DNA of 47,500 bases from Neocallimastix lanati (nom. inval.). Its lineage: Eukaryota > Neocallimastigomycota > Neocallimastigomycetes > Neocallimastigales > Neocallimastigaceae. Positions 19,793-47,500 of the stretch are shown here, one piece after another (position 1 is the first letter of the stretch; each line of letters opens with the position of its first letter). Below the pieces are notes generated by a model. It was given only the letters and a program-made list of their open reading frames with translations. It had not been told where the DNA came from and searched no databases. A program made the translations under genes and the position numbers. Where the stretch lies: contig JACVTC010000313.1 of assembly GCA_016946835.1 (NCBI GenBank), positions 1 to 47,500 on the forward strand, in the 5' to 3' direction.

Positions 19793-19843
<51 letters not shown>

Positions 19844-20066
19844 GATTTGAGACTTAGATATTTTATTTAAAAATTAATAAAGATTCAAATTTTATTTAAA
19901 TAATATAATAAAAAGGCATATAATAATATATTATTTGAAAATACAATATTACTTGTTTATGAAAAATTAAAATTTATTTTTTTTTTTTTGTTTGTTTTTT
20001 TGTTTTTTTGTTTTGGTTTTTTTTTTTTTTTTATTTGTTTGTATGTGTGTGTGTTTCAAAAAATAG
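19006..20066. other. AT-rich spacer with a 44-bp A-run
   Basis: No gene is visible. A pure A-run occupies about 19797-19840. A T-rich stretch with TTTGTTTG and GTGTGTGTG lies at about 19976-20055. Confidence 0.55.
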
Positions 20067-25345: not shown

Positions 25346-25640
25346 ATTCATGAAAAAATAAGTATATAATAAAAATGAAATATCATTAAATATTTAATAT
25401 TAGAAATATTTAATTTATAAAAATTTAAACTCTTAATTATTAATATTTAAAGCTGATAATTTACATTTAAAAATACCTATTCATATGTAATAAAATATTA
25501 TTTATAATTAGATATATAAAAAAAATATAAATTTAAATATTAAATAAATTTAATTTAAAATATTAATGAATAAATATTAATTATATAAATAATTAAATAT
25601 TTTAATAAAAAAAAATATTTTTATTTTATAGAATAAAATA
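25346..25640. other. AT-rich spacer between two satellites
   Basis: A/T-only sequence of mixed short repeats. Nothing is recognisable. Confidence 0.4.
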
Positions 25641-28005
25641 AAGCATGTTTAAGCCATATATGTCAAAAAAAATAGCGAAAAAACTTTTTTCTTTCAAATG
25701 TAAAAATATTTGAATATTTTATTCCCAATAAGCAAAAGTATTTTCAGATTAATTTTTTTTTATATAATTATTATTTAAAATAAAAAGTTTATATAAGTGG
25801 ATATATATTATGTTTATAAATAAATCAACCATACATATTAATGAATAAATAATTATAAAATAAATAAATAAATAATTTAATAAACAAATTCTTTTATTTT
25901 TGGTAAATAAAAAAAATTTGCTCAAACCGTATATGTCAAAAAAAAAATAGCGAAAAAACTTTTCTCTTTAAAATGCAAAAATATTTGAATATTTTATTCA
26001 TAATAAGCAAAAGTATTTTCAGATTAATTTTTTTTATATAATTATTATTTAAAATAAAAAGTTTATATAAGTGGATGTATATTATGTTTATAAATAAATC
26101 AACTATACATATTAATGAATAAATAATTATAAAATAAATAAATAAATAATTTAATAAACAAATTCTTTTATTTTTGGTAAATAAAAAAAATTTGCTCAAA
26201 CCGTATATGTCAAAAAAAAATAGCGAAAAAACTTTTTTCTTTAAAATGCAAAAATATTTGAATATTTTATTCCCAATAAGCAAAAGTATTTTCAGATTAA
26301 TTTTTTTTTATATAATTATTATTTAAAATAAAAAGTTTATATAAGTGGATGTATATTATGTTTATAAATAAATCAACTATACATATTAATGAATAAATAA
26401 TTATAAAATAAATAAATAAATAATTTAATAAACAAATTCTTTTATTTTTGGTAAATAAAAAAAATTTGCTTAAACCGTATATGTCAAAAAAAAAATAGCG
26501 AAAAAACTTTTCTCTTTAAAATGCAAAAATATTTGAATATTTTATTCCTAATAAGCAAAAGTATTTTCAGATTAATTTTTTTTATATAATTATTATTTAA
26601 AATAAAAAGATTATATAAGTGGATGTATATTATGTTTATAAATAAATCAACTATACATATTAATGAATAAATAATTATAAAATAAATAAATAAATAATTT
26701 AATAAACAAATTCTTTTATTTTTGGTAAATAAAAAAAATTTGCTCAAACCGTATATGTCAAAAAAAAAATAGCGAAAAAACTTTTCTCTTTAAAATGCAA
26801 AAATATTTGAATATTTTATTCCTAATAAGCAAAAGTATTTTCAGATTAATTTTTTTTATATAATTATTATTTAAATTAAAAAGATTATATAAGTGGATAT
26901 ATATTATGTTTATAAATAAATCAACTATATATATTAATGAATAAATAATTATAAAATAAATAAATAAATAATTTAATAAACAAATTCTTTTATTTTTGGT
27001 AAATAAAAAAAATTTGCTCAAACCGTATATGTCAAAAAAAAAATAGCGAAAAAACTTTTCTCTTTAAAATGCAAAAATATTTGAATATTTTATTCATAAT
27101 AAGCAAAAGTATTTTCAGATTAATTTTTTTTTATATAATTATTATTTAAAATAAAAAGTTTATATAAGTGGATATATATTATGTTTATAAATAAATCAAC
27201 TATACATATTAATGAATAAATAATTATAAAATAAATAAATAAATAATTTAATAAACAAATTCTTTTATTTTTGGTAAATAAAAAAAATTTGCTCAAACCG
27301 TATATGTCAAAAAAAAAAATAGCGAAAAAACTTTTTTCTTTAAAATGCAAAAATATTTGAATATTTTATTCATAATAAGTAAAAGTATTTTCAGATTAAT
27401 TTTTTTTATATAATTATTATTTAAAATAAAAAGTTTATATAAGTGGATGTATATTATGTTTATAAATAAATCAACTATACATATTAATGAATAAATAATT
27501 ATAAAATAAATAAATAAATAATTTAATAAACAAATTCTTTTATTTTTGGTAAATAAAAAAAATTTGCTCAAACCGTATATGTCAAAAAAAAATAGCTAAA
27601 AAACTTTTTTCTCTAAAATGCAAAAATATTTGAATATTTTATTCATAATAAGCAAAAGTATTTTCAGATTAATTTTTTTATATATAATTATTATTTAAAA
27701 TAAAAAGTTTATATAAGTGGATGTATATTATGTTTATAAATAAATCAACTATACATATTAATGAATAAATAATTATAAAATAAATAAATAAATAATTTCA
27801 TAAACAAATTCTTTTATTTTTGGTAAATAAAAAAAATTTGCTCAAACCGTATATGTCAAAAAAAAATAGCTAAAAAACTTTTTTCTCTAAAATGCAAAAA
27901 TATTTTAATATTTTATTCCTAATAAGCAAAAGTATTTTCAGATTAATTTTTTTTATATAATTATTATTTAAAATAAAAAGTTTATATAAGTGAATGTAAA
28001 AATAT
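25641..28005. repeat. 274-bp tandem repeat, about 9 copies
   Basis: The marker TATATGTCAAAAAAAA recurs every 273-275 bp (25659, 25932, 26206, 26480 and so on to about 27852). Copies share AATAGCGAAAAAACTTTT, AAGCAAAAGTATTTTCAGAT, ATAAATCAACTATACATATT and TTTTATTTTTGGTAAATAAA. The first copy is diverged and the last is incomplete. Open frames of 76-115 codons recur with the same period and are products of the repeat. Confidence 0.9.
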
Positions 28006-28267
28006 AAATAAATAAATTTATTTATTAACATTAATGAATGTAAATTAATAATATAAATAAATATTTTAATATAAATATTAATGAATATATTAATATATTA
28101 AATAAATATTTTGACATATCTCTTAATGAACATGTATTAATAATATAAATAAATAATTCAATATAGTTATTAATGAATATTTATTAATAAAATAAATAAA
28201 ATAGGGTTATGAGTTGCATTTCGGATAACGTGGCTTTTTAAATTTAAATAAATTAAATCGGAGAGAT
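28006..28267. repeat. A/T-rich repeat ending in a GCATTTCGG-GTGGCTT module
   Basis: TTAATGAATATTTATTAATA-type repeats lead to AGGGTTATGAGTTGCATTTC-GGATAACGTGGCTT at about 28203-28237. The same sequence, with TTCC for TTGC, ends a related stretch at about 29158-29192, so about 180 bp is duplicated. Confidence 0.6.
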
Positions 28268-28552
28268 GTGCTTTTCACAAAATGTGGCTTAAAATATTTT
28301 TATTATTTATTATTTATTTATTATATTATTATAATTATTTATTATATTTATTATTTGTTATTATATTTTATATTTATTATTTGCTATTGTTTATTATTTG
28401 TTATTATTTTTTATATTTATTATTTCCTATTATTTATTATTTGCTATTATTTATTATTTATTATTTATTATTTACTAGGGTTATTTATTGGTTAAAAAAA
28501 TATATATTGTGGCAATTAATTAAAAATATTTAAGCCACATTGTGAAAAACAC
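28268..28552. mobile_element. Non-coding TIR element (MITE-like), copy 2
   Basis: The left end (28268-28302, GTGCTTTTCACAAAATGTGG then CTTAAAATATTTTTA) is inverted at 28521-28552 (TAAAAATATTTAAGCCACAT then TGTGAAAAACAC) with few mismatches. The interior is a TTATTTATTATT-type run with no transposase. The terminal ATGTGGCTTA is shared with copy 1. It probably belongs to the same family. Confidence 0.6.
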
Positions 28553-29274
28553 AATTGCGAAATGCACATTTGCACATTCATAAAATTGCATTTGAAAATG
28601 TGGCTTTTTAAAGTTTTAAATAATTAATTAATAAATAAAAGTTAGGGTCAGAGATTTTTTAATTTTTATATTATTAAGTTATTAATAATATAAATATTAT
28701 AATATATTATTCTACTATTTTAAATAATTTAAAAAAATATTAATAAAAAATTATATAAGTGTATGTATATAATGTATATAAATAAATTTAATTGTAAATA
28801 TTAATGTATATATATTAATTATGTAAATAAATATTTTAATAAAAATATTAATGAATATATATTTATATACTATAAATAAATATTATAATGTATATTAATG
28901 AATATTTATTAATAATACAAATTAATATTATAATATATATAAATTAATATTTAATAACAATATAAATAAATATTTATATATATATAAATGAATATTTAAT
29001 AACAATATAAATAAATATTTTAATATATATATTAATGTATATATATTAATTTTTTAAATAAATATTTTTATATATCTATTAATGAACATGTTTTAATAAC
29101 ATAAATAAATAATTCAATATATATATTAATGAATATTTATTAATAAAATAAATAAATAGGGTTATGAGTTCCATTTCGGATAACGTGGCTTGTTAAAATT
29201 TAAATAAATAAAATAAAATTTAAAAATCTCTAACCCTAATATTTATTTATTATTATTTAATTTTTATTTCTTTT

Positions 29275-29319
<45 letters not shown>

Positions 29320-29836
29320 TTTTATTTTTATTATTATTATTTATTTATTTTAAAAAATAGTTATATAAAAAAAAATATAAATCAATAAAAAATATTTTAA
29401 ATAAAAAATATACATTTATATTTAAAATATAAAAAATTAATTATATTTAAATTTTAAAAATCCTTATAAATATCTTTAAAGTTATATTTAAAACTTTAAA
29501 AGGTTATATATCTTTTAATTATAAAAAAAATATTCCTTAAATATTCTTCAGAAATATAAATAAATGTTTTAAAATAAATTTTCTTTAAATGTTTATTAAT
29601 TATTTAAGGTTAATAAAACAATTGTGACAGAATTCAGATAATCCTTTTCGTTTGATAATTAACCTGTAATTTATTATAAATTGGTATTTTCATTACTTAA
29701 TTTAATTAAATATTTAAACTATCATTTAATATTATCATTTCTTATTTCTTCCAGTATCATCAAACATTGTTTATATCATAAGAAAGTTTATTTACTTATT
29801 TTTTTTTTTTTTTGTTATTTATGATTTAATTGAGGA
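28553..29836. other. AT-rich region with inverted TTAGGGT/ACCCTAA sites and a T-run
   Basis: A further GCATTTGAAAATGTGGCTTT module lies at about 28590. GTTAGGGTCAGAGATTTTT (28642) is inverted as AAAAATCTCTAACCCTAA (29219), suggesting ends of another small element. A ~40-bp T-run occupies about 29277-29317. 29580-29790 is less repetitive but has no open frame that I trust. Confidence 0.45.
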
Positions 29837-30113
29837 TAGTGCATTTCGCAATGTGGCGTATTTTTGTATTTTACTATTTTTTTAATAATATAATAAATAA
29901 TAAGTATTCTTTTTTCTTTTTTATATATAATTTATTAATATTCCATTGTAAAAATAAGTTTTTATAAAAAATAATTTTTAATATTTCTTTTGAAATAGTA
30001 ATTATTTTTATATTTATTTATGATTATATATATAGAATATCTTAAAAATGTATGGCTTTATTTTTTTAAATATTTAAGCCACATTACAAATCAAATTATT
30101 GTGAAATGTACTA
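29837..30113. mobile_element. Non-coding TIR element (MITE-like), copy 3
   Basis: The left end TAGTGCATTTCGCAATGTGG(C) at 29837-29857 is inverted imperfectly at about 30078-30113 (GCCACATTA...TTGTGAAATGTACTA). TA at each outer end may be the target dinucleotide, as in Tc1/mariner-type elements, but that assignment is speculative. It shares the GCATTTCG and ATGTGGC modules with copies 1 and 2. There is no coding sequence. Confidence 0.5.
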
Positions 30114-30449
30114 TATTCGAATTACTTGCATAAATCCCATTTTTTTTGTGATACTTTATTAAATATATGTTTAAGTTTATACTGAAAAGAATTGAACTTT
30201 TTGCCGTTTCATCTTAAATTTTATTTTCTTCAATTGATATAGATGTATTAAATTCTTTTAGGGATGATTATTTAAGCATTCATATTTAGGGGTTTTTATT
30301 TTTTTTAACATTTAAAATAATGAAAGATTTGCATTTATATAGTTTTATCATATATTATATTTAGGAATTATCTTTTTTTTTTTTTTTTTTTAAATAAATA
30401 TATTTTATCTTTTTTTTTTTTTTTTTTTTTAATAAATATATTTTAACTA
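30114..30449. other. AT-rich spacer, no gene seen
   Basis: A slightly less biased stretch (30115-30300) precedes two long T-runs (about 30371-30391 and 30412-30430). On the minus strand a few coding-like codons are interrupted by stops; too weak to call. Confidence 0.4.
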
Positions 30450-31510
30450 TTTAAATAAATATTTTGATATATATTTAAATGAATATATATTAATTAATTA
30501 AATAAATATTTTGTTATATATATAAATGTATATATAATAATTATTTAAATAAATATTTTGATATATATATAAATGTATATATATTAATTAATTAAATAAA
30601 TATTTTGATATATATTTAAATGAATATATAATAATTAATTATATAAATATTTTGATATATATATTAATGAATATATAATAATTAATTAAATAAATATTTT
30701 GATATATATATTAATGAATTTATAATAACTAATTAAATAAATATTTTGATATATATTTAAATGTATATAATAATTATTTAAATAAATATTTTGATATATA
30801 TTTAAATGTATATAATAATTATTTAAATAAATATTTTGATATATATTTAAATGTATATAATAATTATTTAAATAAATATTTTGATATATATATTAGTGAA
30901 TATATAATAAATAATTGAATAAATATTTTGATATATATATTAATGAAAATATAATAATTAATTAAATAAATATTTTGATATATATATAAATGTATATATA
31001 TTAATTAATTAAATAAATATTTTGATATATATTTAAATGAATATATAATAATTAATTAAATAAATATTTTGATATATATTTAAATGAATATATAATAATT
31101 ATTTAAATAAATATTTTGATATATATATAAATGTATATATATTAATTAATAAAATAAATAATTTGATATATATATTAGTGAATATATATTAATTATTTGA
31201 ATAAATAATTTGATATATATATTAGTGAATATATAATAATCAATTAAATAAATATTTTGATATATATATTAGTGAATATATAATAAATAATTGAATAAAT
31301 AATTTGATATATATATTAGTGAATATATAATAAATAATTAAATAAATATTTTGATATATATATTAATGAAAATATAATAATTAATTAAATAAATATTTTG
31401 ATATATATTTAAATGAATATATATTAATTAATTAAATAAATATTTTGATATATATATTAATGAATATATATTAATTAATTAAATAAATATTTTGATATAT
31501 ATATTAATGA
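30450..31510 (+). repeat. ~47-bp tandem repeat, about 22 copies
   Basis: The unit is AAATAAATATTTTGATATAT followed by (A/T)TTAATGAATATATAATAATTAATT, with variants GTATATA and TTAGTGAATA. Starts near 30453, 30500, 30547 and 30595 give the period. Related units in reverse orientation lie at 36365-36870. Confidence 0.85.
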
Positions 31511-34500
31511 ATATTTAAATAAAGAATAAAATAAAGATAAAATAAAATAAAGAATAAAATAAAGATAAAATATAATAAAGAGAAAAAAAATAAAATAAAA
31601 AAAATAAAATAAAATAAAGAATAAAATAAAGAATAAAATAAAAAATAAAATAAAATAAAGAATAAAATAAAAATAAAGAATAAAATAAAAATAAAGAATA
31701 AAATAAATCAAAATAACATAAAATAAAATAAAGAATAAAATAAAGAATAAAATAAAAAATAAAATAAAATAAAGAATAAAATAAAAATAAAGAATAAAAT
31801 AAAATAAATCAAAATAACATAAAATAAAATAAAGAATAAAATAAAATAAAAAATAAAATAAAATAAAGAATAAAATAAATCAAAATAACATAAAATAAAA
31901 TAAAGAATAAAATAAAGAATAAAATAAAGATAAATAAAATTAAATAAAGAATAAAATAAAAAAAAAATAAAATAAAATAAAATAAAAAAGAAATAAAATA
32001 AAATAAAATAAAGAATAAAAAGAAATAAAATAAAAATAAAATAAAATAAAATAAAATAAAATAAAAATAAAATAAAATAAAATAAAAAATAAAATAAAAA
32101 AGAAATAAAAAAAAAATAAAGAATAAAATAAAATAAAAAATTAAGATAAAATAAAACATAAAGAATAAAATAAAATAAAATAAAGAATAAAAAAGAAATA
32201 AAATAAAATAAAGAATAAAAAAGAAATAAAATAAAATAAAGAATAAAATAAATCAAAATAAAGAATAAAAAAAATAAAAAATTAAAATAAATCAAAATAA
32301 AGAATTGAATGAAATAAAAAATTAAAATAAAATAAAATAAAGAATAAAATAAAATAAAATAAAATAAAGAATAAAATAAAATAAAATAAAATAAAATAAA
32401 ATAAAATAAAATAAAATAAAATAAAATAAAATAAAATAAAATAAAATAAAATAAAATAAAATAAAATAAAAAATAAATCAAAATAAAATAAAATAAAGAA
32501 TAAAATAAATCAAAATAAAATATAATAAAGAATAAAATAAATCAAAATAAAATAAAGAATAAAATAAATCAAAATAAAGAATAAAATAAAATAAAAAATT
32601 AAAATAAATCAAAATAAAGAATTGAATGAAATAAAAAATTAAAATAAAATAAAATAAAGAATAAAATAAAATAAAATAAAATAAAGAATAAAATAAAATA
32701 AAATAAAGAATAAAAGAGAAATAAAATAAAATAAAGAATAAAATAAATCAAAATAAAATAAAATAAAGAATAAAATAAATCAAAATAAAATAAAATAAAG
32801 AATAAAAAAGAAATAAAATAAAATAAATCAAAATAAAGAATTGAATGAAATAAAAAATTAAAATAAAATAAAATAAAGAATAAAATAAAATAAAATAAAA
32901 TAAAGAATAAAATAAAATAAAATAAAATAAAATAAAATAAAATAAAATAAAAAATAAATCAAAATAAAGAATAAAATAAATCAAAATAAATCAAAATAAA
33001 GAATAAAATAAAATAAAAAATTAAAATAAATCAAAATAAAGAATTGAATGAAATAAAAAATTAAAATAAAATAAAATAAAGAATAAAATAAAATAAAATA
33101 AAATAAAGAATAAAATAAAATAAAATAAAATAAAATAAAATAAAATAAAATAAAAAATAAATCAAAATAAAGAATAAAATAAATCAAAATAAAATATAAT
33201 AAAGAATAAAATAAATCAAAATAAAATAAAATAAAAAATAAAATAAAATAAAATAAAGAATAAAATAAAAAAGATATAAAAAAAAATAAAGAATAAAATA
33301 AAAAAAAATAAAGAATAAAATAAAATAAAATAAAGAATAAAAGAGAAATAAAATAAAATAAAATAAAATAAAATAAAGAATAGAATAAAATAAAATAAAT
33401 AATAAAATATAAAGAAATAAAATAAAACATAAAAAATAAATAAATAATAAAAAAAAAAAAAATAAAACATAAAGAATAAAATAAAGATAAATAAAATAAA
33501 ATAAAGAATAGAATAAAATAAAATAAAGAATAAAATATAAAGAAAATAAATAAAAAAAATAAAATAAAACATAAAGAATAAAAAAAAAATAAAATAAAAC
33601 ATAAAGAATAAAAAAAAAATAAAATAAAACATAAAGAATAAAAAAAAATAAAATAAAACATAAAGAATAAAAAAAATAAAATAAAACATAAAGAATAAAA
33701 AAAAAATAAAATAAAACATAAAGAATAAAATAAAATAAAGAATAAAATAAAATATAATAAGGAATAAAATAAATCAAAATAAAATATAATAAAGAATAAA
33801 ATAAATCAAAATAAAATATAATAAAGAATAAAATAAATCAAAAAAAATAAAATAAAAAAAAAATAAAATAAAACATAAAGAATAAAATAAAGATAAATAA
33901 AATAAAATAAAGAATAGAATAAAATAAAATAAAGAATAAAATATAAAGAAAATAAATAAAAAAAATAAAATAAAACATAAAGAATAAAAAAAAATAAAAT
34001 AAAACATAAAGAATAAAATAAAATAAAATAAAATAAAATAAAATAAAATAAAGAATAAAATAAATCAAAATAAAATATAATAAAGAATAAAATAAATCAA
34101 AAAAAATAAAATAAAAAAAAAATAAAATAAAACATAAAGAATAAAAAAAAGATAAATAAAATAAAATAAAATAAAATAAAATAAAATAAAGAATAAAATA
34201 AAATAAAGAATAAAATATAAAGAAAATAAATAAAAAAAATAAAATAAAGAATAAAATATAAAGAAAATAAATAAAAAAAATAAAATAAAGATAAATAAAA
34301 TAAAATAAATAAAATAAAATAAAGAATAAAATAAAATAAAATAAAGAATAAAATAAAGATAAATAAAATAAAATAAAGAATAGAATAAAATAAAATAAAG
34401 AATAAATAAAATATAAAGAAATAAAATATATCATAAAAAATAAATAAAAAATAAAATAAAAAAAAATAAAATAAAACATAAAGAATAAAATAAAGATAAA

Positions 34501-35926
34501 TAAAATAAAATAAAGAATAAAATAAAAATTAAAATAAAATAAAAAAGAAATAAAATAAAACATAAAAAATAAAATATAAAGAAATAAAATATATCATAAA
34601 AAATAAATAAAAAATAAAATAAAGAATAGAATAAAATAAAACATAAAGAATAAAATAAAACATAAAGAATAAAATAAAGATAAATAAAATAAAATAAAGA
34701 TAAATAAAATAAAATAAATAAAATAAAATAAAGAATAAAATAAAATAAAATAAAGAATAAAATAAAGATAAATAAAATAAAATAAAGAATAGAATAAAAT
34801 AAAATAAAGAATAAATAAAATATAAAGAAATAAAATATATCATTAAAAAATAAATAAAAAATAAAATAAAAAAAAATAAAATAAAACATAAAGAATAAAA
34901 TAAAGATAAATAAAATAAAATAAAGAATAGAATAAAATAAAATAAAGAATAAAACAAAGATAAATAAAATAAAATAAAGAATAGAATAAAATAAAATAAA
35001 GAATAAAACAAAGATAAATAAAATAAAATAAAGAATAGAATAAAATAAAATAAAGAATAAAATAAAGATAAATAAAATAAAATAAAGAATAGAATAAAAT
35101 AAAAATAAAGAATAAAACAAAGATAAATAAAATAAAATATATCATAAAAAATAAATAAAAAATAAAATAAAGAATAGAATAAAATAAAACATAAAGAATA
35201 AAATAAAACATAAAGAATAAAATAAAGATAAATAAAATAAAATAAAGATAAATAAAATAAAATAAATAAAATAAAATAAAGATAAATAAAATAAAATAAA
35301 GAATAGAATAAAATAAAATAAAGAATAAAATAAAATAAAATAAAGAATAAAATAAAATAAAATAAAGAATAAAATAAAATAAAATAAAGAATAAAATAAA
35401 ATAAAATAAAGAATAAAATAAAATAAAATAAAGAATAAAATAAAAAAGAAATAAAATAAAATAAAAAATAAAATAAAATAAAATAAAAAATAAAATAAAA
35501 TAAAATAAAATAAAAAATAAAATAAAATAAAATAAAATAAAATAAAGAATAAAATAAAAAAGAAATAAGAATAGAATAAAATAAAATAAAGAATAAAATA
35601 AAGATAAATAAAATAAAATAAAGAATAGAATAAAAAAGAAATAAAATAAAATAAAGAATTAAATAAAATAAAATAAAGAATAGAATAAAAAAGAAATAAA
35701 ATAAAATAAAGAATAAAATAAAATAAAATAAAATAAAAAATAAAATAAAATAAAATAAAATAAAATAAAATAAAATAAAGAATAAAATAAAGAATAAAAT
35801 AAAATAAAAAATAAAATAAAATAAAATAAAATAAAATAAAGAATAAAATAAAAAAGAAATAAAATAAATAAAATAAAATAAAGAATAAAAAAGAAATAAA
35901 ATAAAAAATAAAACGAAAAATAAAAA
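31511..35926. repeat. 4.4-kb AAAAT/AAAG low-complexity block
   Basis: The plus strand is almost only A, T and isolated G, built from AAAATAAAAT, AAAGAATAAAAT, AGATAAATAAAAT, AAATCAAAATAAAG and ACATAAAGAATAAAA words. Larger blocks are themselves duplicated: GAATTGAATGAAAT marks repeats near 32303, 32620, 32839 and 33041, and a CATAAAGAATAAAAA-type unit is repeated about six times at 33560-33720. Long minus-strand open frames of Phe/Ile/Leu/Tyr are consequences of stop-free repeat words and are not genes. Confidence 0.9.
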
Positions 35927-36338
35927 CATTTAATGACTATTTTTTTTTTAAGGAATATATTATTTATAGCAATACTTTTTTTATTTAAAAGAATAATTTT
36001 TTTTAAATAATATTTTATTCTTTTAAATAATATTTTATTTGAAGTTTATTTTAAAGTATCATTTTTTTTTTATTATTAAGAATATTTTTTTTTTTTTAGG
36101 TATAGGTACTTTTTTTAAATACAAATATTTTTAAGACTTTTTTAATTTTTAAATATAAGAATATATATATATTTTATTATTTAAATATTTTTATTGAATA
36201 TTTTATTTTATATTTATTTATTTATTTTTTTTTAAAATAAAAATAAATAAGAAAAAAAAAAAAAAAAAAACTTTAATACTAATTTAACATTATTTATTAA
36301 AACTGCTTATTTATTAATTCAATTATTAAAAATTTAGT
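35927..36338. other. AT-rich spacer, no gene seen
   Basis: T-rich and then A-rich sequence with homopolymer runs; no recognisable feature. Confidence 0.4.
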
Positions 36339-36361
36339 TAGCCACATTTTTCGAAATACTA
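36339..36361. mobile_element. Solitary TIR end of the MITE-like family
   Basis: TAGCCACATTTTTCGAAATA-CTA is close to the right-hand end of the TIR elements at 29.84 and 28.27 kb (GCCACAT...GAAATG(C/T)AC). No partner end is visible nearby, so it is a remnant or solo end. Confidence 0.4.
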
Positions 36362-36364
36362 TAA

Positions 36365-36870
36365 TTCCATATTCATTAGTATATTAAAATATTTATTTAT
36401 ATTATTAATATATATTCATTAAAATATATATTAAAATATTTATTTATATTATTAATATATATTCATTAAAATATATAATAAATAATTTATTTATATTATT
36501 AATATATATTCATTAAAATATATAATAAATAATTTATTTATATTATTAATATATATTCATTAAAATATATAATAAATAATTTATTTATGTTATTAATATA
36601 TATTTATTAAAATATATAATAAATAATTTATTTATATTATTTATATATATTCATTAAAATAGATATTAAAATATTTATTTATATTATTAATATATATTCA
36701 TTAAAATATATATCGAAATATTTATTTAAGTAATTAATAAATATTCATTAATATATATATCAAAATATTTATTTAAGTAATTAGTAAATATTCATTAATA
36801 TATATATCAAAATATTTATTTAAGTAATTAATATATATTCATTAATATATATATTAAAATATTTATTTAA
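36365..36870 (-). repeat. Inverted array of the ~47-49-bp A/T repeat
   Basis: About ten units of TATTCATTAAAATATATA-(T/A)TAAAATATTTATTTATATTA are the reverse complement of the array at 30450-31510. The later units (36710-36870) carry TTTAAGTAATTA. Confidence 0.8.
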
Positions 36871-37075
36871 GTAATTATTTTATTTTTTTTATTCTTTATT
36901 TTATTTTATTTTATTTTATTTTTTTTATTTTATTTTTTTTTTATATTCTTTATTTTATTTTATTTTTTATTATATTATTTTTTATTTCTTTTTTATGTTT
37001 TATTTTATTTATTTTTTATTTTATTTATTTTTTATTTTATTTTATTTATTTTTTATTTTATATTTTTATATTACA
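36871..37075. repeat. TTTTA-type low-complexity block
   Basis: The reverse-complement type of the AAAAT block: ATTCTTTATTTTATTTTATT and TATTTTTTATTTTA words. It adjoins the inverted 47-bp array. Confidence 0.8.
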
Positions 37076-37420
37076 ATTTTTTTTATATTTTGATTTATTT
37101 AATTAGAAATTGCTTTAAAGAAAATATTTTATTGTATTAAAAAAAAAAAAAAATAAATAATTTATTAGTTAAAAATTAAAATAATAAATAATTAATCTTA
37201 TAAATATTATTAACTATTAATTGAATATATATAAATTATTTGATGGATGATATAATCCATTAAATTAAAAATTTAATATTATAAATAAATTTTTATTAAA
37301 CATAAAAATATATCAAAACAATTTTTTCTTAAAATATTATTTAATTTTAATAAGATTAACATAAATTAAAGATAAATTATCCTATGATAATTTCATTTTT
37401 TTATGTAAAAATCATTTATA
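37076..37420. other. AT-rich spacer, no gene seen
   Basis: Unremarkable A/T-rich DNA leading into the 76-bp repeat. No open frame or RNA feature could be supported. Confidence 0.4.
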
Positions 37421-38000
37421 GTTCATGTGGAAAACATAAATAAATGACAAAATAGCATATGATTTTTACATAATTTTATGAAAATAAAGCATTATTTTTC
37501 ATGTGGAAAACATAAATAAATGACAAATTAGCATATGATTTTTACATAATTTTATATAAAAAAACATTAATTTTTCATGTGAAAAACATAAATTAATGAC
37601 AAAATATCATATGATTTTTACATAATTTTATGTAAAAAAACATTAATTTTTCATGTGAAAAACATAAATAAATGACAAAATATCATATGATTTTTACATA
37701 ATTTTATGTAAAAAAACATTAATTTTTCATGTGAAAAACATAAATTAAAGACAAATTATCATATGATTTTTACATAATTTTATGTAAAAAACATTAATTT
37801 TCATGTGAAAAACATAAATTAATGCCAAAATATCATATGATTTTTATATAATTTTATGTAAAAAACATTTATTTTTCATGTGAAAAACATAAATTAAAGA
37901 CAAAATATCATATGATTTTTACATAATTTTATGTAAAAAACATTTATTTTTCATGTGAAAAACATAAATTAATGATAAAAAAAATTAATGATGAAATATC
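37421..38000. repeat. ~76-bp tandem repeat with dyad, about 8 copies
   Basis: CATGTG(G/A)AAAACATAAAT recurs every 75-77 bp (37424, 37500, about 37577, 37652, 37728 and on). Each unit also has CATATGATTTTTACATAA and TTTTATGTAAAAA. TTTTTACATAA and TTATGTAAAAA are inverted around a short loop, so every unit can form a hairpin. Non-coding. Confidence 0.85.
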
Positions 38001-38810
38001 AAATGATGATTTATATAATTTAATATAAGAAAACAAATAAAATTATATTTTATTTTTTTTATATTTAATTGCAATTATTTTAAATTATATAATTATTAAT
38101 AGATTAGTATGTTGTTTGAATAATATTAATCAATATTAAAAATTTAAAAAATTTTTATATTTATATTTATTTTTTATTTTATATTTTATATTTGATTTTA
38201 ATTTATTTTAAATTATTACTTAGATTTTAATTTACATTAGAATAAAGTTAATTAATTAAATTTATAATGATTAAATAATTAATAACATATAATTATGATA
38301 TTATAAAATTTATATTTTTAATTTTATAATGATTAAATAATAAATAAAATAATAATATTTTTTATATTTTTACTTTTATAATGATTAAATAATTAATAAC
38401 ATATAATTATAATATTAATAAAATTTTATTATTTAATAATGATTAAATAATTAATAAAATTTACTATGATATTAGTGAAATTTTTATTTTTAATTAAATA
38501 ATTATTAAATAATAAATAATATATCATTATTATTTATATTTTTAATTTGATAAGGGTTAAATAATAAATAAAATATATATATAATATTATTAAAATTCAC
38601 ATTTTTAATTAAAATATAATTTTTAAATAAAATTTAAATTTATATCTTTATAATTAATTATATATTATATTGTGAAGTATATATAATTATATTGATAATA
38701 AATATTATTTGCAATATATTAAATTTTAAATAAAATATTACTATTTTTAAATAATAATTTACTTAATCTCAATGATAGTATATAAATACAGCTATTATTT
38801 TATTAATAAA
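38001..38810. other. AT-rich spacer left of the telomere-like tract
   Basis: Loose repeats of ATGATTAAATAATTAATAAC with ATATAATTATAATATT occur (about 38260-38570). No gene is seen. The sequence ends abruptly at the G-rich tract. Confidence 0.45.
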
Positions 38811-38856
38811 GGGGTTAGGGGTTAGGGGTTAGGGGTTAGGGGTTAGTAGGGTTAGG
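38811..38856 (+). repeat. Internal telomere-like tract, GGGGTTA units
   Basis: Five GGGGTTA units are followed by GTAGGGTTAGG, 46 bp in all, reading G-strand left to right. This is TTAGGG-type telomeric sequence with a G-rich 7-bp variant. It sits exactly between unrelated A/T DNA and the 3' end of the Gag-type element. Confidence 0.85.
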
Positions 38857-41503
38857 TTTTAAACTTTGTAATTTTTATTAAAATTATTCGATTAGATAAT
38901 ACATTAATTAATGTATATATAAATTATATGAAATCATGACTACATGATTTTAAGTAAATTAATACATTTTTAGTAAAAAAATAAAAGTTCGATAAAGTAA
39001 AAAAAAAGTATATATCTATAAAGTTTAGAATTTTAAGGAAGAGAAAAATTATTCTTTTAAAGTAAATGAATAATAAAAGTAATTCTAATAAAAGAATTTT
39101 TGTAATTATCTAAAAGAATATAAAGTTTTTATAATCTAGTAGAATATTTTAAAATAAAATTTATAAAGAAATTAAATTTTAGTTTGTTCGTAAAGTAAGT
39201 ATATTTAATTAAAACTGAAATCGTATGAAATATATTTATTCATTGATATATTTCATAGATTCAATAATATCCTCAGAACTATAATCCATAGGATTTAATG
39301 GATTAATAGTTGTACTGAGAATATTAGGGGAATTGGATATTATAGTGTCACTATACATATCCATCCCGGCTTCATGGTAGTGCTCAATTGGCACTGTAGG
39401 AGTTAACGTTGAGGAGATAATTGAATCATTATCATCCTCCGTGTTTAGGCTGTCATCCTCAAAGAGTTCAGACGTACCTTTGAACTCTGGGGATTCAAGA
39501 GGGCCACTTGGATTAGCAGCCTTAAAAGCAGCAAAGCCCTTTGATGGGCTAACAACCCTTTCCTTTAGCGCAAGGGCAAAGGCAGAGATGGCTTCTTTAC
39601 TAGAGCGGAGGGCAGCATTAGCTACTTCCGAGGTCGAGCCGGGCGAGTTAGCTGGAGCATCATTGATGGTAGCTGGAGCATTATCGTGGGCACAAACCGA
39701 AGAAGGAGCAGCGAAGTTATTACCTGAGGTAGAGGCTTCTACATTAAGAGAAGCTTCATCAGGAACAGCAGTAGGCGTAGGCGTAGGAATATTAAATTTG
39801 GTAAATTTAATATTCTGGATAACATTAGAAAAGAAGTCCTTAATATAATCAGGACTTCTTTTTCTATTAATAGTTTCAGATATTCTTCGGTAGCATGCTT
39901 TTTCTACTCTAAGAATATCTTCATCATTAGCTGTAGAGGCATTGTCAACAGCAACAGGGTTAAAGTTTTCGAGAACTTTGAATGAGTTTTCAAAAACTTT
40001 AAGGATGTTAATAATCATTGGTTTGGATCTTTTGAGAACTGTAAGTTCGCAAATGTCTTTACCAATGAACGAGACATTTTTAATATAAAAATGTCGTATT
40101 CCAAGATTACTAAGGCATTTTTTGATAACCCAGATGGGTTGCCTTTGAATGCCTTTAATATATACTAAGTCAAGATCATCCTTTCGGATGATCTTAGGTT
40201 GCCTCATAATGAGGCTCAGGATACTTTCCTGAATTAAGGGGAGGCCATCTTCCTGACTTCTTATTCGTTGAAGCTGTGGAGGAAGATGGTCGGCATTCTT
40301 CTCAAGGGAATCTGTAATATCCTTACATTTTCCCTTTTTTTCTTCTATCATTTTTTTGATCCTCTCCTTTTTCTCTAATATTTCAAGAGAAAGTCGAGAG
40401 GGGGAGGCTTCAGACTTATTTTGTAGCACCGTACTAAGTGCTACTGAGTTGTTCTGAGCCTTGAAAATTTGGGATGAAAGTTTAACTTTCTCCTTTTTCC
40501 AAGACTCTTCTAGGCTTCTTATTGATTCAGTAAGATTGGAAATTTCAATCTTACTATTATAACATAAATTTTTTAAATGAGCGTTCTCAGTTCTAAGACG
40601 ATTAAATTCGTCTAAATCGAACTGATTGAGCTCTTTAGGGGCCGAATTTTGGCAGCTTGAGAGATATCTCTCAATGCTAGGATTTCGTTCATCTTCTTCC
40701 AAGGGGTTATTTTTTCTTTTACCAGTCCCTTCGGTCACTGGCTTCTTGAATAACCTTTCTTGGCTTAAGATATCTACTTCTTTCGTTGTGGAGGGAATCA
40801 CCGGCTTTAAGATAGGCTCTTCAGTAATCATGGGATTACTGACGGTCTTTCCAACGAGTTCTTCCCCAGAGTTAGCTTCTTTCATCGCAGCATCTTGGGT
40901 AGGTGCTGCGATGACTAGAGTAGTACCGTTAGAAGAGGTAGTAGGTTCAGCAGAGAGGAGGGTTTGATTTACATCAATCTCCTCTTTGTCGTTCATTTCT
41001 GGTCTACAATAATCATATTTGCACCAGAAATGGTTTCTCAAACTAGGCACCATCGTGAGTAGCTTCTTTACTGGTACCGGTTTGAAGAGGTCTTCATTAG
41101 TTTTGTCCTTGGGATTAGGACTTTGGAAGGGGAGAGATATGACCTGTCTCCCATTCTTGAATAGGATAAGAGGTATGTTATCATTTCCCTTACTGAGAGA
41201 GACGATCTTATGATTATAAAGATCAATAAGATACGCCTTAAGAGCACTAAAGGTGCAGCTATTGTTGCATTTCTTTCGTTTGTTCGAGCAGTAGAGGCGG
41301 GTATGACTTGTCTTAGTAAAAATTCCCCCGCATCTTCTGCAGCGGATCGGAATAGGGCGTCCGTCCGCGCTTTGGTTTTTACCACTAAGAATAAATGACA
41401 AGTGGTAAACACCGGCGTAGCTTAAGACTTCTTCCCCTTTAGATGGCATTATAAGATATTAAAAATTTATAAGAATATTTAATTATAAAGAATATTTTTA
41501 TTT
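38857..41503 (-). mobile_element. Gag-only telomeric retroposon (HeT-A-like arrangement)
   Basis: A 2.65-kb element in minus orientation, flanked on both sides by G-strand telomeric tracts. From 5' (right) to 3' (left): a short leader (41450-41503), one large ORF1/Gag-like gene, and a ~380-bp A/T-rich 3' region. Its 3'-terminal ~100 bp (38857-38955) aligns with the 3' end of the 2.35-kb units: both begin TTTTAAAC, then share a TACATTA(A)TTAATGTATATATAA dyad and a following hairpin. No reverse transcriptase or endonuclease frame is present. It is therefore either a natural Gag-only element or a derivative lacking ORF2. Its coding part is far richer in G+C than anything around it. Confidence 0.65.
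39236..41449 (-). CDS. ORF1/Gag-like protein of a non-LTR-type retroposon
   Basis: A 737-residue protein with an intact frame. Cys 37, 40, 54, 61 and 65 (RCRRCGG...YCSNKRKKCNNSC) form a zinc-finger-like N-terminal cluster. Residues about 275-335 are a probable coiled coil (FNRLRTENAHLKNLC...IRSLEESWKKEK), with further charged helix at 355-380. Residues about 420-490 (IIRKDDLDLVYIKGIQRQPI, then VIKKCLSNLGI, NVSFIGKD) form a compact alpha/beta segment resembling, to my recollection, the nucleic-acid-binding part of fungal LINE ORF1 proteins. The C-terminal third is Ala/Pro/Ser-rich, then acidic. Coiled coil plus nucleic-acid-binding domain fits an RNA-packaging Gag/ORF1p. Mixed codons and high G+C contrast with the host genes, suggesting separate ancestry. 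Another Zn-binding DNA protein is possible. Confidence 0.75.
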   Translation of the reverse strand: MPSKGEEVLSYAGVYHLSFILSGKNQSADGRPIPIRCRRCGGIFTKTSHTRLYCSNKRKKCNNSCTFSALKAYLIDLYNHKIVSLSKGNDNIPLILFKNGRQVISLPFQSPNPKDKTNEDLFKPVPVKKLLTMVPSLRNHFWCKYDYCRPEMNDKEEIDVNQTLLSAEPTTSSNGTTLVIAAPTQDAAMKEANSGEELVGKTVSNPMITEEPILKPVIPSTTKEVDILSQERLFKKPVTEGTGKRKNNPLEEDERNPSIERYLSSCQNSAPKELNQFDLDEFNRLRTENAHLKNLCYNSKIEISNLTESIRSLEESWKKEKVKLSSQIFKAQNNSVALSTVLQNKSEASPSRLSLEILEKKERIKKMIEEKKGKCKDITDSLEKNADHLPPQLQRIRSQEDGLPLIQESILSLIMRQPKIIRKDDLDLVYIKGIQRQPIWVIKKCLSNLGIRHFYIKNVSFIGKDICELTVLKRSKPMIINILKVFENSFKVLENFNPVAVDNASTANDEDILRVEKACYRRISETINRKRSPDYIKDFFSNVIQNIKFTKFNIPTPTPTAVPDEASLNVEASTSGNNFAAPSSVCAHDNAPATINDAPANSPGSTSEVANAALRSSKEAISAFALALKERVVSPSKGFAAFKAANPSGPLESPEFKGTSELFEDDSLNTEDDNDSIISSTLTPTVPIEHYHEAGMDMYSDTIISNSPNILSTTINPLNPMDYSSEDIIESMKYINE

Positions 41504-41520
41504 GGGGTTAAGGGGTTAGG
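41504..41520 (+). repeat. Telomere-like tract between the Gag element and unit 3
   Basis: GGGGTTAAGGGGTTAGG, in G-strand orientation, lies directly between the 5' side of the Gag-type element and the 3' end of unit 3. Confidence 0.75.
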
Positions 41521-43301
41521 TTTTAAACGTTATAATTTTATTTAATAAAATTAATCAAAATAGTTAATACATTATTAATGTATATATAATTTAAGAAAAA
41601 TCATTATTGATTTTCAAGAAGTTTAATTATTAAACTATTCTAGCGACTATTATTATTTTAAACAAATAATAATAGAAAATAAGATTTTTATTTTAGATAT
41701 TAAAATCTATTCTAAGATTTTTAAACTATTCTATTTGTAACAAAGAATTCTATACTATTCTAGAGAATTATTATTAAGAAAATAATAATAATTATAGCAA
41801 GCGAATAATAACTTTAAATATTAAGTAATTATTATTGTAAAATAATAATTAATACAATCTTTAAGAATTAATATTATTATAAAAATAATAATTAATACAT
41901 GAGTTTATAATTATTATGAGAAATAATAATTAATACATGAGTTAATAAATAATACATTTTAAAATAGAAAATTATTATTATTATGAAAATAATAATAATT
42001 AATACATGATTTTATAGAAGATTATTATTATGAGAAATAATAATCAAACAATTTTGATTAAAAAATATTGTTATTATATAAATAATAACAATTATACATA
42101 AGTTTATTAAATAGATTATTATAATAATAAAATAATTAATTATTAAATAAATAATAATTAATTAAAAGTATTGTTAATTATTATAACAATCATAGAGAAT
42201 AAAGAAAATACATCCCAAGAAGGTAAGGTCGGAGAACCGAGAACCAAAAAAAGGGATCCAAAGAATCCAGAATAACCCAAAGAATAGACAAGAGAACTAA
42301 AAGACAAGAACTCTGAATCAAAGGAGTACCCTGGAGAATAAGCAAACGAGAATCCAACAACCAATCAAGTAACCAGAAGAATAACCGAAAGAGAATCCAG
42401 CAAACCAACAAAGAGTAAACCGGAGAGTTCAGCAAGACAACAGAAATCCTGAAAACCAAAAGGAACCAAAAAATCATTCCAAAAGGAAACCGGAGAGATT
42501 ACATTCCAGTAATCAAAAGTGAGAACCGGAGTTTAAATCAAAAAGAGTCCAGCTAACAAAAGTGTCAACTGGAAGAGTTTAAAGACATTCCAGAAAACAG
42601 GTTAAAAAACCTGAATTCTGGGCGAATTATTTAAATATATTTTATTTTATTTTGATATAATGAATATTGCAAACGAATACTCATTAATACGGAAAAAATA
42701 TTTTAAAAAAAAACAAAAGATATTTATACTCTAAATTTCTTTATTATTAAAAAAATAAAACAAAATATTATAAAATAAAACAAAATATTATAGGTCCACT
42801 TTTAATTTACATTTTAATACAAAGGGATTTATTCTTTTATTTAAAATAATTTATTTATATTAATAAAATAAAATAAAATAAAAAAACGGATTCATAAAAA
42901 TTTATTTGTTTTTAAAATAATTTATTTATTATTTTGTTTTATCAAAGGGATGATGCAAATATAAAAACAATATAATTATAAAACTATTATTTTAAACAAT
43001 ATTTAAAAATAAATAAATAATGACAATAAACAATAGAACAAACGCTTTTATTTTATATAATATAAATTTTTAATTAATAATTTCAAATAATTTCGTAAAA
43101 CTAAATTAAAATTATTTTTTAAAATTTAAAACTGATTTAAAAGTAATTAATTTTATATAAGTTTTTCATATTTTATAAATTTAAAAAAAAATAATATATA
43201 TATATATATATATTTTTTTTTTTTGCTTTGCTTCTTTTTTTTCTTTTTTTTTTTTTTCTTTTTTTTTTTTTTTTTGGTTATATAGTAATAAAAATCTAAT
43301 C

Positions 43302-43332
<31 letters not shown>

Positions 43333-43872
43333 TTTAAATAATAATAATTTAAATATTAAACAAAAACTAATAAATAAAATATTTTAATATAGTTATTTAA
43401 AAATTAATAATTAATTAAATTTCATAATTAAATATTAATAAATTATAGTTATAATACAATGAAAATAGCATTAAAAAAAATACTATTTGTTATTTATAAA
43501 TTAAACATTAATCCAATCAATATATATTAATATAAATATTAAAATTATCATATTAAAATGAAAATTTTGTATAAATTTTATTATTAGTTATATATATTGA
43601 TATTTTGGTATTTTTTAGGTATTATATTTATTATCTATTATATAATTTATTTTATTATTTATAATTTTAATAAATGTTTATTATTATTTATGATTCTTTA
43701 ATATTTATAATTTTAATAAACGTTAATAATTATTTATTTATGATTCTTTAATTTATAATTTTAAAAAACGTTAATAATTATTTATTTATGATTCTTTAAT
43801 TTATAACTTTTAATTATTTTTTTTTTAATAATTATTTTTAAAAATAAAAAATGGGTTATCCATATTTTAAAG
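41521..43872 (-). mobile_element. 2.35-kb non-coding telomeric retroposon, unit 3
   Basis: Nearly identical to unit 1 over its whole length, including the same end at TTTTAAAG followed by GGGG. It shares unit 1-specific states: GAAAATAATAATAATT, a single TTTGCTTTGCTTC block, and the extra ~55 bp in the CGTTAATAATT repeat. Homopolymer lengths differ slightly. Confidence 0.75.
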
Positions 43873-43886
43873 GGGGTTAGGTTAGG
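43872..43886 (+). repeat. Telomere-like tract between units 3 and 4
   Basis: GGGGGTTAGGTTAGG, identical to the tract between units 1 and 2. Confidence 0.7.
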
Positions 43887-45608
43887 TTTTAAACGTTATA
43901 ATTTTATTTAATAAAATTAATCAAAATAGTTAATACATTATTAATGTATATATAATTTAAGAAAAATCATTATTGATTTTCAAGAAGTTTAATTATTAAA
44001 CTATTCTAGCGACTATTATTATTTTAAACAAATAATAATAGAAAATAAGATTTTTATTTTAGATATTAAAATCTATTCTAAGATTTTTAAACTATTCTAT
44101 TTGTAACAAAGAATTCTATACTATTCTAGAGAATTATTATTAAGAAAATAATAATAATTATAGCAAGCGAATAATAACTTTAAATATTAAGTAATTATTA
44201 TTGTAAAATAATAATTAATACAATCTTTAAGAATTAATATTATTATAAAAATAATAATTAATACATGAGTTTATAATTATTATGAGAAATAATAATTAAT
44301 ACATGAGTTAATAAATAATACATTTTAAAATAGAAAATTATTATTATTATGAAAAAAATAATAATTAATACATGATTTTATAGAAGATTATTATTATGAG
44401 AAATAATAATCAAACAATTTTGATTAAAAAATATTGTTATTATATAAATAATAACAATTATACATAAGTTTATTAAATAGATTATTATAATAATAAAATA
44501 ATTAATTATTAAATAAATAATAATTAATTAAAAGTATTGTTAATTATTATAACAATCATAGAGAATAAAGAAAATACATCCCAAGAAGGTAAGGTCGGAG
44601 AACCGAGAACCAAAAAAAGGGATCCAAAGAATCCAGAATAACCCAAAGAATAGACAAGAGAACTAAAAGACAAGAACTCTGAATCAAAGGAGTACCCTGG
44701 AGAATAAGCAAACGAGAATCCAACAACCAATCAAGTAACCAGAAGAATAACCGAAAGAGAATCCAGCAAACCAACAAAGAGTAAACCGGAGAGTTCAGCA
44801 AGACAACAGAAATCCTGAAAACCAAAAGGAACCAAAAAATCATTCCAAAAGGAAACCGGAGAGATTACATTCCAGTAATCAAAAGTGAGAACCGGAGTTT
44901 AAATCAAAAAGAGTCCAGCTAACAAAAGTGTCAACTGGAAGAGTTTAAAGACATTCCAGAAAACAGGTTAAAAAACCTGAATTCTGGGCGAATTATTTAA
45001 ATATATTTTATTTTATTTTGATATAATGAATATTGCAAACGAATACTCATTAATACGGAAAAAATATTTTAAAAAAAAACAAAAGATATTTATACTCTAA
45101 ATTTCTTTATTATTAAAAAAATAAAACAAAATATTATAAAATAAAACAAAATATTATAGGTCCACTTTTAATTTACATTTTAATACAAAGGGATTTATTC
45201 TTTTATTTAAAATAATTTATTTATATTAATAAAATAAAATAAAATAAAAAAACGGATTCATAAAAATTTATTTGTTTTTAAAATAATTTATTTATTATTT
45301 TGTTTTATCAAAGGGATGATGCAAATATAAAAACAATATAATTATAAAACTATTATTTTAAACAATATTTAAAAATAAATAAATAATGACAATAAACAAT
45401 AGAACAAACGCTTTTATTTTATATAATATAAATTTTTAATTAATAATTTCAAATAATTTCGTAAAACTAAATTAAAATTATTTTTTAAAATTTAAAACTG
45501 ATTTAAAAGTAATTAATTTTATATAAGTTTTTCATATTTTATAAATTTAAAAAAAAAAATAATATATATATATATATATTTTTTTTTTTTTGCTTTGCTT
45601 CTTTTTTT

Positions 45609-45652
<44 letters not shown>

Positions 45653-45713
45653 TTGCTTCTTTTTTTTTCTTTTTTTTTTTTTTTTTTGGTTATATAGTAA
45701 TAAAAATCTAATC

Positions 45714-45744
<31 letters not shown>

Positions 45745-46284
45745 TTTAAATAATAATAATTTAAATATTAAACAAAAACTAATAAATAAAATATTTTAAT
45801 ATAGTTATTTAAAAATTAATAATTAATTAAATTTCATAATTAAATATTAATAAATTATAGTTATAATACAATGAAAATAGCATTAAAAAAAATACTATTT
45901 GTTATTTATAAATTAAACATTAATCCAATCAATATATATTAATATAAATATTAAAATTATCATATTAAAATGAAAATTTTGTATAAATTTTATTATTAGT
46001 TATATATATTGATATTTTGGTATTTTTTAGGTATTATATTTATTATCTATTATATAATTTATTTTATTATTTATAATTTTAATAAATGTTTATTATTATT
46101 TATGATTCTTTAATATTTATAATTTTAATAAACGTTAATAATTATTTATTTATGATTCTTTAATTTATAATTTTAAAAAACGTTAATAATTATTTATTTA
46201 TGATTCTTTAATTTATAACTTTTAATTATTTTTTTTTTAATAATTATTTTTAAAAATAAAAAATGGGTTATCCATATTTTAAAG
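43887..46284 (-). mobile_element. 2.35-kb non-coding telomeric retroposon, unit 4
   Basis: Matches unit 2 at diagnostic sites (GAAAAAAATAATAATT; doubled TTTGCTTTGCTTC block at about 45590 and 45649) but keeps the ~55 bp that unit 2 lacks. It continues past TTTTAAAG into the same polypurine tail as unit 2. Confidence 0.75.
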
Positions 46285-47500
46285 TAAAACTTTTTTAAAA
46301 TAAATTTAAGACATTTAAAATTATAAGGTCTTTAATAAAAAAAAGATAGTTATACTCATTTCATGACCTTTTTTTAAATAAATAATTTTTGAAAAAAAAT
46401 TAATTAATTTACATATAATAAAAAAATACTTCTTCCCATAATGTTTAATTTTTTTTATTTTATTTAATTTTTTTATTTTATTTTTTTTTTTTTTAATAAA
46501 AATGAAAGAAAGAAAAAACCATAATAAAAAATATTATTTTTTCTATCTTTCTAAAATTTAGCCTTTTAATAAGCAAAAAAAGGATAACAAAAAAAAATTC
46601 TTATATTCTTTTATTTTTTTTTCCTTTCTTTCTTTCTTTCTTATTTTTTTTTAAATAAAAAACATATATATTATTGTTTTTAATTTTCTAAAATTTTAGC
46701 CTTTTACAACTAAAAAAAGAAAAAAAAATTCATCTCCTCCCTCTCATCACTTTTTTTTTATTTTTATTTTATTTTATTCTTTAAAAAAAATAATTAAAAA
46801 TAAAAATAAAAAATTAAAATAAAAATGAAGGAAAAATATTTTTTCTTTTTATCTTTCTAAAATAGAAAAAAAAAATTTCCTTCTTCCATTTCATCATTTT
46901 TTAATTTTTTTTATTTTTATTTTTATTTTATTTTTTTTTAAAAATAATTTAAAATAAAAATAATAAAAAAATTAATAAAAAAAAAAAAAAAAAAAAAAAT
47001 ATTTATTTCTTTTATCTTTCTAAAGTAGAAAAAAAAAAAGAAAAAAATTTCCCTCTTCCTTTCATCATTTTTTAATTTAATTTATTTTTTTTTAAAAAAT
47101 AATTTAAAATAAAAATAAAAAAAAAAAAATAAAAAAAAAAGAAAGAAAAAAGAAAAATATTATTTCGTTTATCTTTCTAAAATAAAAAAAAAAAAAAAAG
47201 AAAAAAATTCCCCTCTTCCTTTCATCATTTTTTAATTTTTTTTTTTTTAATTTTATTTTATTTTATTTTTAAAATAAAAATAAAAAAAAAAAATAAAAAA
47301 AAAAAAAAAGAAAGAAAAAAGAAAAATATTTATTTCTTTTATTTTTCTAAAATAGAAAAGAAAAAAGAAAAAATTCCCCTCTTCCTTTCATCATTTTTTA
47401 ATTTTTTTTTTATTTTTATTTTTATTTTATTTTTAAAATAAAATAATTTAAAATAAAAATAAAAAAAAATTAAAAAAAAAAAAGAAAGAAAGAAAGAAAG
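46285..47500. repeat. Second copy of the polypurine/polypyrimidine tail, runs off the window
   Basis: Colinear with 15224-16440 and onward, with the same CCCTCTTCC and GAAAGAAAG repeats and only small indels in homopolymers. The window ends within it, so the right boundary of the duplication is not seen. Confidence 0.8.

Follow-up and report, generated by a model that had tools for sequence, protein, structure and literature searches.

Head-to-tail arrays of probable telomere-directed retrotransposons related to LINEs in Neocallimastix lanati

The stretch of DNA analysed here (the window) is a complete contig, C239 (JACVTC010000313.1; 47,500 bp), of the 199-Mb, 762-contig assembly of the gut fungus Neocallimastix lanati, whose other contigs are named C1, C5, C126 and so on. 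It carries five elements that lie head to tail and are joined to telomere repeats. Each one is marked at its left end by TTAGGTTTTAAAC, found at 10511, 12878, 38852, 41516 and 43882, always on the plus strand and with zero reverse matches within the window, and each has the minus strand as its sense strand. The sense 3' ends of all five consist of GTTTAAAACC-TAACC set against TTAGG(G) stubs; in the RNA sense they read GTTTAAAACCTAACC.

Four of these elements, units 1 to 4, are noncoding derivatives. In unit 1 (10516..12867, minus) the sense strand finishes at 10516, next to a TGGTTAGG stub whose last base is 10515, and the outer (5') end meets the next telomeric stub, GGGGGTTAGGTTAGG (12868..12882, plus). 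Unit 2 (12883..38810, minus) has the same noncoding sequence in its 3' part, to about 15223, and the rest is repeat-rich and is read as a 5' leader. Further outward lie a telomeric G-strand tract of about 46 nucleotides (nt; 38811..38856, plus), made of five GGGGTTA repeats plus GTAGGGTTAGG, a Gag-only element of 2.65 kb (38857..41503, minus) with a Gag-like open reading frame (ORF) of 740 amino acids (aa; 39236..41458, minus), and a 17-nt stub, GGGGTTAAGGGGTTAGG (41504..41520, plus). The array is completed by unit 3 (41521..43871, minus), a second GGGGGTTAGGTTAGG stub (43872..43886, plus) and unit 4 with the start of its repeat-rich leader (43887..47500, minus), which runs off the contig end. 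The alternation of telomere tracts and elements that had been described from the window is real as regards the G-rich tracts, but most of these are only short stubs. Units 1 and 3 are 99.96% identical over 2360 bp (0 mismatches, 1 gap) and have the outer junction GGGGGTTAGGTTAGG in common, which indicates that block copying acts here and that pairs 1-2 and 3-4 are one copied block, not four independent attachments. Neither do units 2 and 4 end at about 2.4 kb, since outward of unit 2 the next telomeric tract appears only at 38811.

Similar junctions were found throughout the assembly. A query of 398 bp from the 3' end of unit 3 gave at least 43 near-full-length matches at 97-100%, a lower bound with 40 of 299 candidates scored, and 401 bp from the 3' end of the Gag element gave 43 matches at 72-100% among the 40 of 127 candidates scored. 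The TTAGGTTTTAAAC-type 13-mer occurs 125 times genome-wide and its reversed control 44 times, which means that about a third of the bare matches can be chance (100 of the 125, up to C421, are listed with their junction positions), and a 21-mer of the end of LINE-A, a long interspersed nuclear element (LINE) described below, occurs 72 times with up to 1 mismatch against 3 for its control. Both the 13-mer junction table (79 junctions) and the LINE-A pattern contain TTAGG as a search condition, and its presence at the LINE-A places is therefore no proof. In fetched loci with enough flank, where TTAGG was not demanded, it precedes 76 of 77 3' ends, the exception being a T-run in C57, and all 77 read TTTTAAAC on the G strand, with at most AAAA before CC. 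After collapsing identical 45-bp flanks there were 58 distinct junctions, with a median stub of 16 nt (at most 25 nt in 54 of them). The cut 5' end of another element underlies 28 of 81 junctions; telomere-letter overlap was also seen at such ends and is not used as support. Furthermore, on contigs longer than 100 kb all 24 junctions of the TTAGG-constrained table point to the nearer contig end. The original prediction, a polarised telomere-attached array in a probable fungus, is supported, and its assembly-wide check (whether copies lie close to contig ends, share a polarity and have telomeric repeats at the 3' junction) was positive. The proposed joining through the telomeric G strand is supported as well.

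We inspected the predicted distal ends of 31 array contigs. Fifteen were telomere-capped (C126, C57, C756, C760, C197, C562, C191, C131, C185, C421, C269, C177, C666, C200 and C296), fifteen were uncapped (C157, C5, C22, C138, C198, C299, C98, C1, C253, C305, C175, C58, C402, C317 and the window's own right end at 47,500) and one (C750) reads N. The left ends of C14, C38, C46, C212 and C223, where 13-mer matches lie deep inside, were also without a cap, and those array contigs whose other end was seen (C1, C58, C98 and, at the left, C239) have no telomere there. Every one of the 43 known unit- or Gag-type junctions on the 15 capped contigs points to the cap, as do 18 of 19 LINE-A-type junctions, the odd one being C296:10473. 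TERT-like (Telomerase_RBD) exons were found on C106 with weak scores (28.5 and 27.4 bits, cut-off 25), and the host fungus seems to keep telomerase; together with the caps this supports the earlier suggestion that new ends are capped by telomere repeats.

One cut unit end, ...AACAAACGC, occurs both empty and filled. In two contigs plain telomere comes after it and runs on until the contig stops, for 244 nt in C57 (TAGGGGTTAGGGGTTTAGGGTTAGGG...) and for about 440 nt in C269 (TAGGGGTTAGGGGTTAGGG...); in two others an element is attached to it, after TAGGGGTTAGGGGTTTAGG in C347 and after TAGGGGTTAGG in C126. An inner array with junction spacings of 236 and 2656 bp is common to C126, C269 and C347. 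In addition, the stub has the variant TTTAGG in both C57 and C347, which suggests that it is old telomere and not RNA-copied.

A reverse transcriptase (RT) was found in the same arrays. It was not located by a scan of the assembly with RVT_1 (150 of 5028 candidates scored), and was taken from a LINE fragment at C5:1-9000, whose RT segment gave 125 matches with 150 of 463 candidates scored. The best were eight copies at 99-100% including itself (LINE-A; C5, C1, C175, C191, C297, C497, C507 and C177), five of which have open frames of 1479-1484 aa. The next six, at 59% (LINE-B; C126, C175, C191 twice, C299 and C1:3772845), have 1201 aa open in five cases. All 14 copies lie on junction-bearing contigs with the polarity of the neighbouring junctions, C5 and C507 being duplicates. 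Among the other rows, a match on C126 is partial (97%), six contigs (C112, C128, C168, C58, C527 and C171) hold broken copies at 46-78%, and the rest reach 48% or less, many of them internal. LINE-A has the order Gag then endonuclease (EN) and RT, with the Gag ORF 5' of the endonuclease piece on the C1 pieces. From the start of the RT segment to the LINE-A 3' end, GAATTTAAAACCTAACC, six copies measure 6.65-6.69 kb and the C1 copy 7.0 kb; the C191 contig stops before that end is reached. LINE-B, as read in C126, consists of a repeat-rich 5' region as in the window units, the 1201-aa EN/RT ORF, a 1.4-kb spacer, a Gag ORF (frameshifted in this copy), a 3' untranslated region and CCTAACCC; all five 1201-aa copies have 6.46-6.47 kb between the RT segment and the 3' end. 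The RT matches RVT_1 with an E-value of 8e-31, its best matches among solved structures are 8c8j (RNA-directed DNA polymerase), LINE-1 ORF2 proteins and then R2, and by profile it falls with LINE-like RTs. A Pfam scan of the EN/RT ORF gave no endonuclease family directly; the N-terminus nevertheless matches the endonuclease regions of LINE-like proteins, of the apurinic/apyrimidinic endonuclease (APE) type (probability 98.6, E 9e-16), and keeps the motifs N, E, GDFN, D and S/TDH. The C-terminal part has a CPIC..H..C motif without a following RHD, as judged by eye. A relative named Orpsp1_1, a code for Orpinomyces, covers 51% of the ORF at 65% identity. These data point to an APE-endonuclease LINE as the likely helper of the elements in the window.

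The Gag ORF of the window ties its element to these LINEs. It has an N-terminal Cys cluster, and a later segment is homologous to LINE-A Gag (ORF1) pieces (32% over 205 aa and 33% over 141 aa). Solved structures gave no relative of Gag, the best match (E 0.026) being taken as chance. By a simple counting method over 500 codons, the ratio of nonsynonymous to synonymous substitution (dN/dS) of Gag between A- and B-type copies is 0.24-0.27. The 1.4-kb LINE-B spacer is 98% identical to the sequence 5' of Gag in C157, which indicates that the Gag elements are 5'-truncated RT-Gag elements; as judged from these alignments, the one in the window would be the truncated end of the RT-then-Gag lineage, LINE-B. 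The 5' end of the Gag element falls at the same point within 3 nt in C239, C126 and C177, about 50-55 nt before the ATG and on three different stubs, and this common start may be the start of the RNA.

Unit 2 belongs to a block of about 26 kb, of which it forms the 3' end and which recurs at near-constant spacing elsewhere. Its leader holds a variable-number tandem repeat (VNTR) at 15.2-16.8 kb, a repeat at 18.1-19.0 kb, a 195-bp satellite at 20.4-25.4 kb and more arrays to 38.8 kb. The satellite (20470-25312) comprises about 25 copies, and inspection by eye showed similar sequence at the C138 and C253 ends. A tandem array at 31500-35930 is very AT-rich (5-6% GC), with a strong skew between its strands. 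A marker at window 16.9 kb gave 26 matches at 93-100% over nearly the whole length (a count without partial rows of 92% on C435 and 81% or less elsewhere), all with a junction inward, at 3.9-4.6 kb in 21 cases and at 11.4-11.9 kb in five LINE-B copies. A second marker, at 29.7 kb, gave 17 matches at 97-100% (not counting partial rows at 84% or less), of which nine lie 14.2-16.9 kb from the junction, three, in LINE-B copies, at 23.9-24.2 kb and one, on C177, at 25.8 kb from a LINE-A end, with four having no listed inward junction. In C126 about 7.8 kb with RT and Gag occupies the place of some 1.7 kb of unit-specific sequence. The near-constant spacing indicates that the leader travels with the 3' end, perhaps as RNA and perhaps by break-induced replication; block copying would account for it as well as a giant unit moved as one RNA. 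The C177 marker (at 50605) has no listed unit- or Gag-type junction between itself and the LINE-A 3' end; part of the leader may be common to LINE-A, or the contig may be recombinant.

Taken together, we think it probable, with good confidence, that these are telomere-directed APE-type non-long-terminal-repeat (non-LTR) retrotransposons and their nonautonomous derivatives, copied outward from telomeric G-strand ends and re-capped by telomerase. An RNA ending in TTTAAAACC(UAACCC) would anneal in a single register (TTAGG|TTTTAAA) to a G-strand 3' end of the telomere and be copied outward, in many cases only in part, giving 5' truncation; telomerase would then re-cap the new end, and repeated cycles would build head-to-tail arrays with their 3' ends inward. 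The RT would be supplied by LINE-A and LINE-B, while Gag-only copies and noncoding units would be moved in trans or spread by recombination. Leftover stubs could serve later attachment or strand invasion, and whole blocks may be copied between chromosome ends by break-induced replication.

Several observations weigh against this interpretation. Diverged Gag-query matches (72-84%) on C1 (two, near 3.776 Mb), C24, C35 and C212 lie internally or point away from the closer contig end, the 59% RT copy C1:3772845 belongs to a group that points away, and LINE-A-type ends are internal or opposite on C65, C128, C141 (122 kb), C151, C164, C168, C190, C665 and C296 (10 kb). The single polarity that had been predicted is qualified by these diverged or LINE-A-type copies. 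Two Gag-query matches on C22 (83 and 86%) fit the predicted polarity, as do LINE-A-type ends on C14, C97, C379 and C721, 90-160 kb from an end. At least GGTTAGG precedes the 3' end in 15 of 22 LINE-A-type junctions inspected and less in seven (C14, C65 (+), C151, C164, C296, C366 and C379); old copies may thus occupy internal positions poor in telomere repeat. Also unfavourable are the apparent lengths of 26-35 kb, which are long for a LINE cDNA, and the block copying in the window pair, so that the junctions need not all be true retrotransposition events. As a side observation, at C65:117673-118318 and C379:1113424-1114069 two LINE-A-type 3' ends face each other about 625 bp apart, which could be a fused end or another repeat.

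Within the telomere-directed interpretation, the endonuclease might instead nick double-stranded repeats at TTAGG^G, so that elements insert within the tract as is thought for TRAS/SART and MoTeR. We regard this variant as a real possibility, at somewhat less than even chances. The conserved endonuclease motifs, the fixed register with two Gs, the telomeric repeats on both sides of the elements and the internal LINE-A-type ends with little beyond GGTTAGG (C721 and C665) are all in accordance with it, but random insertion should often leave longer stubs than those found here, given the 244 and about 440 nt of plain telomere on one cut end. The short stubs lean to eroded ends and the intact-looking APE leans to nicking, and we place priming on free or eroded ends slightly ahead.

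Recombination could also have acted alone, with old subtelomeric relics spread by break-induced replication through TTAGGG stubs and no recent retrotransposition. The block shared by units 1 and 3 with its outer junction, the arrays common to C126/C269/C347, C157/C297 and C175/C402/C589 and the markers whose distance to the 3' end stays at about 4 and 14-17 kb on many ends all agree with such a process, which would also preserve polarity and register. It is nonetheless improbable in our view, as it leaves aside the near-identical lengths of the open RT frames in each family, the constraint on Gag, the single 3' end (TTTAAAACC) across families with RTs 59% identical, the Gag copies with one 5' end on three different stubs and the single site with different attachment points.

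An assembly artefact, with repeat collapse or chimerism producing false arrays, appears very unlikely. The published genome, from a sheep faecal isolate, is a MECAT assembly of PacBio reads (200.97 Mb, mean read 7.8 kb; PMC8561657), and many of the 762 contigs are short and telomeric. However, caps lie directly on cut elements in contigs of up to 1.88 Mb, the polarity is consistent, and collapse would not invent differing stubs and cut points, so that the concern bears mainly on structures longer than a read. Kinship with endonuclease-deficient Penelope-like elements or rotifer-type Terminons, which had been named as a parallel and is favoured by the 3' end complementary to telomere repeats, the 5' truncation at such repeats and the apparent giant size, is hardly credible and was rejected on the LINE-type RT and N-terminal APE of the RT found (no Penelope query was run), with no hammerhead among the Rfam matches up to E 5 in 38001-47500, where the three hits (E 3-3.8) are taken as chance.

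As for the size of the transposing unit, a more specific and rather doubtful proposal is that the telomere-directed elements include a dedicated LINE lineage that moves as 25-35 kb, with a satellite-rich leader of about 24 kb, EN/RT and then Gag in reversed gene order, ending in the telomerase-template-like CCUAACCC and coexisting with telomerase. Each 5' truncation would strip the RT first and keep Gag, and HeT-A-like Gag-only elements would arise automatically. A literature search for a non-LTR retrotransposon with gag downstream of ORF2 found no paper.

The system works like HeT-A/TART and MoTeR, yet it departs from each of them, and from Terminons, in a defining feature that was tested. 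As with Drosophila HeT-A, TART and TAHRE, it forms head-to-tail arrays at chromosome ends with the 3' end towards the centromere and has Gag-only beside RT-bearing members (PMC5537684). In contrast to these, whose host lacks telomerase, there are TTAGGG(G) caps and weak TERT-like exons here, the 3' junction consists of TTTAAAACC-TAACC telomere repeat with no poly(A) stretch, and Gag lies 3' of the RT in LINE-B. MoTeR of Magnaporthe is likewise a fungal telomere non-LTR element whose 5' ends lie closest to the chromosome terminus, with short tracts of interstitial telomere repeat and break-induced replication (PMC7367193), and FoTeR of Fusarium has upstream VNTRs (PMC12857005). Both belong to another phylum and have a restriction-like endonuclease (C-C-H-C then RHD), unlike the N-terminal APE found here, and MoTeR 5' ends have variant repeats. 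As a further likeness, MoTeR2 is not known to carry an RT. Bombyx TRAS and SART are APE-type LINEs joined to TTAGG-type repeats in fixed register (PMC7265360); SART has a poly(A) tail, whereas none is present in the unit-, Gag- or LINE-A-type ends checked, and only full-length copies were found at Bombyx telomeres according to a review (PMC4700185), whereas truncated copies are common here. Rotifer Terminons likewise have RNAs that end 3' in a short reverse complement of the telomere repeat, are truncated 5' by such repeats and measure up to 40 kb (PMC6431247), but carry a Penelope RT and hammerheads. The elements would best be filed as a new telomere-targeted APE-LINE group. A literature search covering few subscription journals gave nothing on this subject, judged by title and abstract start, and no word beginning with telomer- occurs in the available part of the N. 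lanati genome paper (PMC8561657).

With a Drosophila-like array next to telomerase-type ends in a fungal phylum that diverged early, both modes of telomere upkeep could be compared within one nucleus. In addition, the empty and filled versions of one cut end allow the direct question of whether LINEs prime on chromosome overhangs, and a Gag gene 3' of the RT would show how RT-less Gag-only telomere elements originate by simple 5' truncation, the origin of HeT-A being called unclear in a review (PMC5537684).

Regarding other features, no Rfam family reached the gathering threshold in the whole window, and a 3' RNA structure of two hairpins had zero pairs with changes on both sides and is not used. 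A GC-richer stretch at 7000-7450 holds GGGTTAGGGTTAAG, with no tRNA (bacterial-code ARAGORN) and no Rfam family. About 550 bp further inward than a telomeric Gag element, C481 and C197 each have an ORF (2448-3392 of the fetched locus; 315 aa or more) with domain 5 of the RNA polymerase subunit Rpb1 (E 2.8e-10). Lastly, a 638-aa ORF with chitin-binding domains (PF00187, E 2.4e-16) is located at 8399-10315 (minus) of the window, about 200 bp from the innermost telomeric junction.

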